From Rhodanobacter humi (GTDB lineage Bacteria > Pseudomonadota > Gammaproteobacteria > Xanthomonadales > Rhodanobacteraceae): a stretch of DNA of 64,000 bases. The notes beneath the pieces were generated by a model that worked only from the letters and a program-made list of their open reading frames with translations, made no database searches and had not been told where the DNA came from. The stretch lies in NCBI RefSeq assembly GCF_041107455.1, contig NZ_JBGBPY010000001.1:1054001-1118000 (forward strand). The letters are read 5' to 3'. This document shows positions 11,029 through 13,369 of the stretch, piece after piece (within the stretch, counting starts at the first letter, position 1; every line of letters begins with the position of its first letter). The translations under genes were made by a program, and so were the position numbers.

Positions 11029-12495
11029 ATGAAACCCGCACTGCAATTCCGCCTCCATCAACAGCTCACCCTGACGCCGCAACTGCAGTTGGCAATCCGC
11101 CTGCTGCAACTGTCGCAACTGGAGCTGGAGGCCGAGCTGCGGCAGCTTGCCGAAAGCAATCCGCTGCTGGAATTCGCCGACGAGAGCGAGGACGAGGTCG
11201 CCGCTGACGAGGCCGCGCCGGAAGCCGACTACGTGCAGGCGCCCGGCCCCGCCGAGGCCGCCGCCGATCGCGATGTCGACGGTGGCGACACCGCCGATTG
11301 GGCCGACGATGGCGGCGGCAGCGTCGAAACCCCGATCGACTTCTCCAACGGGAGCGGCGGCAGCGGCGCCACGCGCGGCGACGAGGATTTCGAGCCGCAG
11401 AACGTCACACCCGAGTCCCTGCAGCAACACCTGCTGTGGCAACTCAACCTCGCCGGCTTCAACCCGCGCCAGACCGCGATCGCCACCGTGCTGATCGATG
11501 CGCTGAACGCCGACGGCTACCTCGCCGACGGCATCGAGGCCGTGCGCGCGGCGCTGCCGGCGAACCTCGCCGCCGACCTCGACGAGATCGAGGCGGTGCG
11601 CCGCCGCCTGCAGGGCTTCGACCCGCTGGGCGTGGCCAGCCTGGACCTGCGCGACTGCCTGCGCAGCCAGCTGGAACAGTTCGACGCCGCCACCCCGCAG
11701 CGCGAGCTGGCGCTCGCCATCGTCGACGGCGAGCTGGAACTGCTCGCGCGCAACGACATCGGCAAGCTGGCGCGCAAGCTGCGCGCCAGCGAGGACGAGG
11801 TGGCCGCCGCCGCCGCGCTGATCCGCAGCCTCGACCCGCGCCCCGGCGCGGCGCTGGACACCACCCCGGTGGAATACGTGGCGCCGGACGTCTATGCCGT
11901 GAAGGACGGCGGCCGCTGGCAGGTACGCCTGAACCCGGACGCCCAGCCGCGGCTGGGCCTGAACCAGCACTACTGCAACCTGATCGCCCGCGCCCGCGGC
12001 GACGACGCCAGCTGGATGAAGGGCCAGTTGCAGGAAGCACGCTGGCTGCTGAAGAGCCTGGAATCGCGCGCCGAGACCCTGCTGAAGGTGGCCGGCGCGA
12101 TCGTGCGGCGGCAGAGCGCCTTCCTCGACTACGGCCCCGAGGCGATGCATCCGCTGGTGCTGCGCGAGGTGGCCGAGGAGGTGGGCATGCACGAATCCAC
12201 CATTTCGCGCGTCACCACGCGCAAGTACCTGCACACGCCGCGCGGCACCTTCGAGCTGAAGTATTTCTTCTCCAGCGGCGTGTCCACCGAGGACGGTGGC
12301 AGCGCCTCGGCCACCGCGATCCAGGCCATGCTGCGCAAGCTGATCGAGGCGGAAGACCCGCGCAAGCCGCTGTCCGACCAGGCGCTGGCCGAGGAGCTGA
12401 AGGGCAAGGGCATCCAGGTCGCCCGGCGCACCGTGGCGAAGTACCGGGAGGGGTTGCGCATCCCCAGTTCCAGCGAACGCCAGCGGATAGTCTGA
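11029..12495 (+). CDS. rpoN: RNA polymerase sigma-54 factor
   Basis: 488 residues, normal length. Region I (residues 1-50) is the glutamine/leucine-rich activator-interaction region beginning MKPALQFRLHQQLTLTPQLQ. An acidic region II follows at about 50-110. The core-binding and DNA-binding parts include the helix-turn-helix near VAEEVGMHESTISRVTTRKY and the RpoN box ARRTVAKYRE at residues 465-474. Directs core polymerase to -24/-12 promoters under the control of enhancer-binding ATPases. Followed by a 422-bp gap before hpf that is largely filled by a palindromic element. Confidence 0.97.
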   Translation: MKPALQFRLHQQLTLTPQLQLAIRLLQLSQLELEAELRQLAESNPLLEFADESEDEVAADEAAPEADYVQAPGPAEAAADRDVDGGDTADWADDGGGSVETPIDFSNGSGGSGATRGDEDFEPQNVTPESLQQHLLWQLNLAGFNPRQTAIATVLIDALNADGYLADGIEAVRAALPANLAADLDEIEAVRRRLQGFDPLGVASLDLRDCLRSQLEQFDAATPQRELALAIVDGELELLARNDIGKLARKLRASEDEVAAAAALIRSLDPRPGAALDTTPVEYVAPDVYAVKDGGRWQVRLNPDAQPRLGLNQHYCNLIARARGDDASWMKGQLQEARWLLKSLESRAETLLKVAGAIVRRQSAFLDYGPEAMHPLVLREVAEEVGMHESTISRVTTRKYLHTPRGTFELKYFFSSGVSTEDGGSASATAIQAMLRKLIEAEDPRKPLSDQALAEELKGKGIQVARRTVAKYREGLRIPSSSERQRIV

Positions 12496-12496
12496 A

Positions 12497-12783
12497 GGAT
12501 GCTCCGATCAATCCCAGTGCAGGCGTCATGATGCCCAGAAGGTTCGCAGATTGTCGTGCGTGGCGCCGCCCAGACTGGCTGTCTGGGCAAGACGCGCGCG
12601 GCGATATGCGGACCTTCTGGGCATCACCTCGTCATTTGAATTCAAGCAGTTGAGGCCGGTCTGTCTGCGCGCATCCCTTCGGCCCGCCGTCTTGACAGAC
12701 AGCCAGTCTGCCTTCGACGACGGTCCTGCGGGCTGCGCGCAGACAGACCGGTGACGCCTACACTGGGATTGATCGGAGCATCC
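12497..12783. repeat. 287-bp nested palindromic element between rpoN and hpf
   Basis: Starts two bases after the rpoN stop. Outer 32-bp inverted repeats at 12497-12528 and 12752-12783 differ at one base. Between them are two hairpin arms: 12529-12626, closed by a perfect 15-bp stem (12529-12543 with 12612-12626), and 12656-12751, closed by a perfect 18-bp stem (12656-12673 with 12734-12751). Each arm has the apex CAGAC-TGGCT-GTCTG, in opposite orientation. The centre (12636-12645) is the palindrome TTGAATTCAA. No reading frame of interest is inside. See findings. Confidence 0.85.
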
Positions 12784-12917
12784 AAAGGGAACTTGCCCAC
12801 CGGGAAAACGCTCCCATTACCTGTAGTGAAGGATGATCGACGACGCGTTCGGACCCCGTCCGCAACGTGTCCATCCCGCCGCCAAACGCGGCACTGCACC
12901 ACCAGAGGAGGCGTACC
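12784..12917. promoter_or_regulatory. Leader of hpf after the palindromic element
   Basis: 134 bp without a gene. Near its end AGAGGAGG forms a strong ribosome binding site for hpf. A promoter must lie here or within the palindrome if hpf is expressed apart from rpoN; I see no clear -35/-10 pair. Confidence 0.3.
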
Positions 12918-13241
12918 ATGCAATTCCAACTCAGCGGCCAGCAGATCGAAGTCACCCCGGCGCTGCGCGCCCATGTCGAATCCAGGCTGGACCGCCTCCA
13001 ACGCCTCGATGACAAGCTGATCAGCCTCGCCGTGGTGCTCTCCGTGGACAAGCTGCAGCACCGCGCGGACGCCACGCTCGGCGTCACCGGCGCCACCCTG
13101 CACGCGCAGGCCGCCGAGGCCGACATGTACGCCTCCATCGACATGCTGTTCGACAAGCTGGTCAACCAGCTGCGCCGCCATCGCGAGAAGATTGTCGACA
13201 AGCATCAGCGCGCCGTGCGCGACGAGCGCCAGTACGGCTGA
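12918..13241 (+). CDS. hpf: Ribosome hibernation promoting factor, short form
   Basis: 107 residues, the size of the short HPF of gammaproteobacteria. Binds the 30S decoding centre in stationary phase and promotes 100S dimers. The opening [20 protein letters not shown] matches the family, and the conserved [23 protein letters not shown] helix follows (about residues 74-96). No long-form C-terminal dimerisation domain. AGAGGAGG precedes the ATG. Located after rpoN as in many gammaproteobacteria; the ptsN gene normally found next is missing here. Confidence 0.95.
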
Positions 13242-13252
13242 TCCGTTCCCCG

Positions 13253-13280
13253 CAGGCCGCCCGTTGCCGGGCGGCCTGCC
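13253..13280. terminator. Perfect 12-bp stem-loop after hpf
   Basis: GCAGGCCGCCCG, loop TTGC, and the exact complement. It lies 12 bp after the hpf stop and 90 bp before hprK. No T-run follows, so it may be a rho-dependent or attenuating structure rather than a classic terminator. Confidence 0.55.
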
Positions 13281-13369
13281 CCGCCGAAACACGCACGCCG
13301 CCCAAGCTGGCACAATGGCCCTGCCCCGCCGCGAAGCCCACCGGCGGCGCGACGCAAAGGACCGAAGGC

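Follow-up and report, generated by a model that had tools for sequence, protein, structure and literature searches.

What is a palindrome of 287 bp, nested at several levels, doing between rpoN and hpf in Rhodanobacter humi? It occupies positions 12497–12783 of the window (the whole stretch of 64,000 nucleotides analysed here), and a sequence-only reading had proposed it to be a mobile or structural element. Its parts and its immediate surroundings are the following.

11029..12495, plus strand: rpoN (sigma-54), with three sigma-54 Pfam domains; found in 14 of 15 genus genomes
12497..12528, plus strand: left terminal inverted repeat, 5' side of the outer stem, 32 nt
12529..12626, plus strand (top-strand sense): hairpin 1 (arm 1), 98 nt, from the fold, covariance model R1 and the bias of G-U over A-C
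12571..12585, plus strand: apical 15-mer CAGACTGGCTGTCTG of hairpin 1
12627..12655, no strand: linker with a short CCTC/GAGG stem and an ATTCAA loop, from the sequence, the fold and the alignment of copies
12656..12751, minus strand: hairpin 2 (arm 2), 96 nt, inverted relative of hairpin 1, from model R1
12696..12710, minus strand: 15-mer at the apex of hairpin 2, reverse-complementary to the one in hairpin 1
12752..12783, minus strand: right terminal inverted repeat, 3' side of the outer stem, 32 nt
12787..12816, plus strand: hpf leader box, GGGAACTTG...GCTCCCA, intact directly after the insertion
12918..13241, plus strand: hpf-like gene, Ribosomal_S30AE family

The architecture first read from the letters is borne out in nearly all its parts. 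The outer 32-nt repeats are 97% complementary with a single mismatch, the two arms of 98 and 96 nt are closed by stems of 15 and 18 bp that can be read off the sequence as perfect, and the apices share the same 15-mer in opposite orientation. The neighbours are rpoN and hpf, as had been claimed, and the start that had been placed two bases past the rpoN stop agrees with a stop ending at 12495 and a single intervening base (12496). Folding of 12490–12790 gives −213.8 kcal/mol against −118.6 ± 4.1 for 100 shuffled sequences (z −23.5), none of which folds as well, and thus the nested palindrome goes beyond chance. Only the perfect palindrome at the centre fared differently: TTGAATTCAA does lie at the exact centre (12636–12645), but it looks incidental, as other copies repeat just part of it (consensus ...ATTCAA).

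Hairpin 1 has a conserved TGCGTGGC/CAAG region under its apex and scores 96.0 bits with R1 at 12533–12624. Hairpin 2 is matched by the same model on the minus strand only, with 51.5 bits at 12656–12749. An Rfam scan of 12000–13300 returned seven matches, all under their own gathering scores and four of them to miRNA models, and consensus scans of 12300–13000 found neither an intrinsic terminator (a hairpin followed by a T run) nor a sigma-70-like promoter. The raiA RNA motif, retron RNA, attC sites and bridge RNA came into consideration as possible identities too. There is no transposase gene within the 287 bp, the frames that cross the element being mechanical ORFs of the program's listing.

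Comparison of the rpoN–hpf gap, which had been suggested as a check, covered 15 genomes of the genus including our own, rpoN being found in 14. The gap is filled in two (our genome and G007) and empty in 12, where the GGAACTTG box of the hpf leader begins from a few to about 20 bases past the rpoN stop. This box lies downstream of the stop in all 14 gaps, with its TCCCA part seen in the six gaps that were printed whole, and the insertion keeps the leader whole, downstream of the element. In the line of descent leading to this strain, the element entered the stretch that separates the rpoN stop from the hpf leader. The box itself (12787–12816) we take to resemble a sigma-E/ECF promoter.

A search for more copies in the genome (4.15 Mb in two contigs) brought the count to 26, the one in the window included: four with the same ends as the window's (type A), 21 with ends GAGCCTGTT... 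(type B) and one of type D. The other three type A copies are 78–82% identical to that of the window. The lone type D copy (L068, near 427653 of the chromosome) combines a core like that of type B with yet another kind of ends (GGCCTTGATGTCGTATGCAAAGC). Two fragments (L069, L070) are outside the 26. The hairpin-1 covariance model makes 47 matches in this genome, of which 26 are on the sense strand, each within a catalogued element, and the other 21 are on the opposite strand or in hairpin 2 of those elements.

Beyond this genome, the element is matched in 27 of 99 genomes searched among relatives (own included), and the hairpin-1 model in 45 of 250 genomes of the order (again own included), spread over 20 of 77 genera. 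A scan of 84,980 species gave at least 119 matching stretches. The titles among the matches listed name Dyella, Rhodanobacter, Fulvimonas, Frateuria, Luteimonas, Pseudoxanthomonas, Xanthomonas, a Rhodanobacteraceae bacterium, and metagenome-assembled genomes labelled Lysobacterales or Proteobacteria; the named genera other than Rhodanobacter we take to belong to the Lysobacterales. Phages, plasmids and viral contigs matched neither the element nor the hairpin-1 pattern. Our catalogue holds 85 elements, 41 of type A, 35 of type B, eight of type C (GGCAACACTGAATAAGTA) and one of type D, between 264 and 331 bp long, after nine of 94 loci were dropped as fragments or unresolved (L033, L034, L087, L097, L098, L102, L106, L108 and L116).

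The flanks of these copies carry the marks of transposition. Identical 4-bp flanks are found in 11 of the 42 scorable type A and C elements (of 49), ten of the 11 being YTAR, that is, CTAG or TTAA, and identical 3-bp flanks in 15 of the 33 scorable type B elements (of 35), all TNA. The copy in the window has no clean target duplication, its flanks being TGAA and AAAG. IS5 subgroups vary in their target duplications.

As judged from their bases, the outer ends match those of IS5-family insertion sequences. For type A the partner is an IS of 1188 bp present in two identical copies in the same genome, flanked by the duplications CTAA and TTAG. Its ends, GGATGCTCTGATCAAT and GGATGCTCTGATTTATTCC, have 15 of 16 bases as at the end of the window's copy (12497..12528), and its protein matches NCBIfam NF033581 (IS5 family) with 350.6 bits against a cut-off of 140. 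The hairpin-1 model has no match in this IS in its own genome. One of its two copies lies on the chromosome (L133, near 223470) and the other on the second contig of 59 kb (L141, near 1870). In a genome of another genus (G032, L132) the same transposase protein is encoded, and the sequence immediately around it is that found at L141, which hints at a shared replicon. For type B the partner is an IS of 846 bp in Fulvimonas (G006), with GAGCCTGTTCAAAGTCTC at either end and a PF01609 match within. At one place in that genome (L142, G006:C46 161902-163134) a second pair of the same ends stands outside the 846-bp IS, with TGA on either side, an arrangement that we interpret as one IS inserted into an older copy.

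Two further leads were set aside. An IS of about 849 bp in G031 (L156), considered as the type B partner, has ends and flanks that fit worse than those of the Fulvimonas IS, and DDE_Tnp_4 (PF13359) as a search key gave matches in two of 17 genomes, none above the cut-off. G031 alone holds 24 transposase matches of near-equal score; the five inspected (L156-L160) have GAGC(A/C)TGTCGTCAT ends, and in the one measured these lie about 849 bp from each other.

The further copies, the empty sites, and ends and duplications that fit IS5-family transposases together identify the element as a miniature inverted-repeat transposable element (MITE) of a modular family found across the Lysobacterales. It has terminal inverted repeats in common with autonomous insertion sequences, target-site duplications at other copies, dispersed copies alongside 12 of 14 empty sites in the genus, and no transposase gene inside. 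To judge from sequence, it is almost certainly a mobile element moved by IS5-type transposases, and it is from the ends that we infer which insertion sequences are its likely transposase donors. The proposal of a mobile or structural element is supported.

What lies between the ends is more constant than the ends themselves. Types A to D have a common two-hairpin design, with one kind of hairpin 2 in types A and C and another in types B and D. When 80 of the at least 119 listed stretches were searched for outer repeats, 77 were found, at least six of which are not credible, and the rest include GGGCCTGTTAAC and GGGCGTGTCATC. The design also turns up, with ends of yet other kinds, in further families of the order (e.g. 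L351, L341 and L345), and such two-hairpin elements with other ends were seen in distant Lysobacterales at L341, L345, L351 and L352. The same kind of core thus sits behind several kinds of ends.

The body of the element consists of two related hairpins, of which hairpin 2 is inverted with respect to hairpin 1. Model R1 rests on 61 of 108 hairpins, none of them a hairpin 2 (in rows taken from the pattern scan the motif is fixed by construction), and was run on 73 sources. Of 38 type A and C sources, 32 have a hairpin 2 that it matches on the opposite strand. A match on the same strand exists besides in four of the 38 (L024, L096, L099 and L100) and is always the weaker one. There is no match to hairpin 2 in the 24 type B sources given, nor in the six distant ones (L351, L352, L343, L341, L345 and L354). 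Hairpin 1 read backwards still scores about 24–67 bits with R1, so that part of the score on hairpin 2 reflects generic hairpin shape; the evidence for the inverted pair is the strand preference together with the common apex, not the raw score. Kissing of the two apical loops was considered and dropped, as their complementarity follows from the inverted relationship. In one genome (G146) there are four places with both hairpins in opposite orientation.

The closing stems of the two arms differ from each other, and it had been suggested that the arms are conserved by structure rather than by sequence. The stems do covary, and this idea can be sharpened: the arms are inverted relatives biased to opposite strands. 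Alignment A1 comprises 31 of the 41 type A elements, leaving out the near-identical orthologue L019 and nine that are longer, shorter or end-trimmed (L029, L035, L084, L085, L093, L095, L101, L103 and L109), and A2 comprises 25 of the 35 type B elements, the ten left out being the longer ones of 282–313 bp. In A1, both partners have changed in 65 of 99 pairs, whereas shuffling yields 35.4 on average and in none of 500 rounds as many as 65; 95.8% of cells are paired, against 83.2% after shuffling and 32–41% with the partner slid. Stem covariation is seen in types A and B, and the outer stem covaries among relatives too.

As these cells count sequences rather than events, the direction in which pairs break was examined as well. 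The principle is simple: a G-U pair on one strand is an A-C mismatch on the other. In hairpin 1, with upper and lower parts summed, G-U and A-C cells number 143:11 in type A and 133:7 in type B; the outer stem has 22:23 and 20:16, showing no strand bias, and hairpin 2 has 11:26 and 7:10. Parsimony gains on FastTree trees for types A and B together, in which trees, parsimony rule and alignment-derived structure are all simple and the event numbers therefore indicative, are 75:17 for hairpin 1 (p 7e-10), 10:28 for hairpin 2 (p 0.005) and 30:35 for the outer stem (p 0.62); tested against the outer stem, hairpin 1 gives p 6e-6 and hairpin 2 p 0.06, the bias of hairpin 2 being the weaker.

A third count, with the arms aligned without pairing rules, took hairpin borders from the top-strand RNA fold; two of the 85 elements could not be parsed (L035 and L103), and the count kept to hairpins of ordinary length. 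G-U exceeds A-C in hairpin 1 of all 36 scored type A and all 33 type B elements, and A-C exceeds G-U in hairpin 2 of 27 of 37 type A elements (three show the opposite) and of all eight of type C. Type C hairpin 1 is weak, at 25:13 (five elements to two, of eight). Hairpin 2 of type B has the opposite sign here, with 45 G-U against 26 A-C (19 elements to seven), although its parsimony count is 3:8, and type B outer stems lean to A-C (28:48). The mirrored hairpin 2, like the outer stem, serves as a control within the same element, and both speak against a mutation bias of one strand. Taken together, the counts strongly suggest that the hairpins are selected as single strands, hairpin 1 on the top strand and hairpin 2 on the bottom one. 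That selection on the hairpins is strand-specific we regard as very probable.

Covariation above controls together with strand-specific pairing, as found here, is what a functional structured RNA shows, and single-stranded DNA would show both as well. One pair of loci, L021 and L022, taken as orthologous from their flanks, bears on where the selection acts. They differ by 22 substitutions, eight of them in unpaired columns, with no pair in which a double change was kept and one in which a double change is broken. As the structure is not visibly kept at this given site, it is probably in the mobile lineage, and not site by site, that selection acts.

The orientation of copies relative to their neighbours, with genes predicted by a simple GC-based caller, differs from even in one type. 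Type B elements run in the direction of both their neighbouring genes in 16:4 cases in the first set and 23:11 at new loci, 39:15 in total (p 0.0015); types A and C, at 15:13, have no bias, and they do not differ significantly from type B (p 0.14). At 22 new loci without a clear type the ratio is 5:7.

We suggest that the hairpins probably work as RNA rather than as single-stranded DNA. A transcript entering the element from either side would meet first a hairpin that is the right way round, and this hairpin could fold at once past the stop codon and so make the insertion harmless to its neighbours, whether through formation of a 3' end, cutting by ribonuclease III, or shielding. Harmless copies would in turn survive and spread. 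A MITE moved by IS5-type transposases, whose paired inverted hairpins are selected as single strands and act as RNA, is on balance the explanation that we favour for the findings as a whole. A broader proposal, that an old hairpin was made into a two-faced structured RNA as an inverted pair and joined to several IS ends, to become an order-wide mobile 3'-end device on transposons, is possible, and we put it forward tentatively.

The alternative that has to be weighed most carefully is that the hairpins act as DNA. In transposition, the hairpin at each end would be extruded or single-stranded on the strand that has its 5' end there, bound by the transposase or a host protein, and the inverted pair would give both ends the same arrangement. 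Symmetric ends would indeed need a hairpin 2 that is an inverted relative with a mirror-image strand bias; the strand bias as such fits single-stranded DNA as well as RNA, and a structure that seems to owe its shape to the mobile lineage, not to any one site, accords with this too. However, the same kind of core occurs with the ends of different IS groups, so that a single transposase is unlikely to be what recognises it, the hairpin-1 model makes no match in the IS that is the partner of type A in this genome, and the orientation bias of type B is not predicted. We therefore consider action as DNA unlikely, though worth serious attention.

The element could instead be an ordinary, functionless MITE with stems that remain paired through template switching. 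In quasipalindrome correction, such switching copies one arm onto the other. An outer stem that covaries without strand bias and the near-perfect arms of some copies are what this would produce, but it predicts equal numbers of G-U and A-C intermediates, whereas within a single element hairpin 1 deviates one way and hairpin 2 the other, and it leaves the conserved unpaired bases near the apices unexplained. This reading seems improbable to us. A host regulatory RNA of the rpoN–hpf operon, kept for the control of hpf, would be consistent with the position in the 5' region of hpf and the strong fold, and is nevertheless very improbable with the site empty in 12 of 14 genus genomes and 26 copies at different sites. 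A REP- or BIME-type palindrome moved by a tyrosine (RAYT) transposase is scarcely credible: paired inverted hairpins in intergenic positions beside stop codons do recall BIMEs, but the length of 264–331 bp, the IS5-like terminal repeats and the target duplications do not, and GTAG or GGAG occurs in none of the 85 catalogued elements within the 18 bases searched at the foot of hairpin 1, the only hairpin so searched. In that stretch CGTC, the tag of CGTC REPs, is present in 22 of 85, depending on type.

The core found here outlives changes of ends and bears signs of single-strand selection, of opposite sense in its two halves. If this is right, there are bacterial MITEs that carry a nucleic-acid structure with work to do, and the comparison of G-U with A-C would then be a simple way of finding more such elements. 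As far as the excerpts of the cited papers go, MITEs are mostly described as decayed insertion sequences and are typically AT-rich (PMC10969869). The present elements resemble other bacterial MITEs in being short and without a coding gene, with terminal inverted repeats, target duplications, intergenic positions and transcripts predicted to form stable stem-loops, but differ from the general description in being GC-rich, in having one kind of core behind several ends, and in their two inverted, related hairpins of opposite strand bias (PMC10969869). The excerpted text of that review makes no mention of Xanthomonas, mosaic or words in covaria-. In titles and abstract openings of a mainly open-access literature we found no account of this family, of which an earlier description is possible. 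IS5-family insertion sequences (PF01609; NF033581) share the terminal bases and the target duplications of types A and B; unlike them, the element has no transposase gene, and the type A IS for its part is without a match to the hairpin-1 model.

Among more particular systems, the Correia elements of Neisseria likewise have inverted repeats, a conserved core and transcripts that ribonuclease III can cleave, but they are a Neisseria family, in whose excerpted descriptions no inverted two-hairpin design appears (PMC2649163, PMC10969869). QMITE2 of Coxiella is also a MITE found mainly in 3' untranslated or intergenic regions, one copy of which is the source of a small RNA, and it differs from the present element by a GTAG REP, duplications of 7–11 nt and a length of 150–190 bp, according to the available text (PMC5896051). 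TIMEs, non-autonomous miniature elements with inverted repeats that derive from Tn3, are set apart by their Tn3-type ends, as excerpted (PMC4133298). GTAG/CGTC REPs (PMC3733652) and BIMEs (PMC2817692) are palindromes too, in alternating orientation in the latter; unlike the present element, REP units measure 20–40 bp, the GTAG REPs are tied to RAYTs, and no IS5-like ends appear in the part of their description available (PMC3733652). GTAG REPs are reported there often to give neighbouring genes a stop codon (PMC3733652).

Insertions directly after stop codons offer a concrete setting in which to ask how mobile elements spare their neighbours. A gene end faces the element in 58 of the 85 catalogued cases, and in 41 of these 58 it is no more than 10 bp away. 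This closeness may be a matter of target choice, as the TNA and YTAR targets overlap with stop codons.
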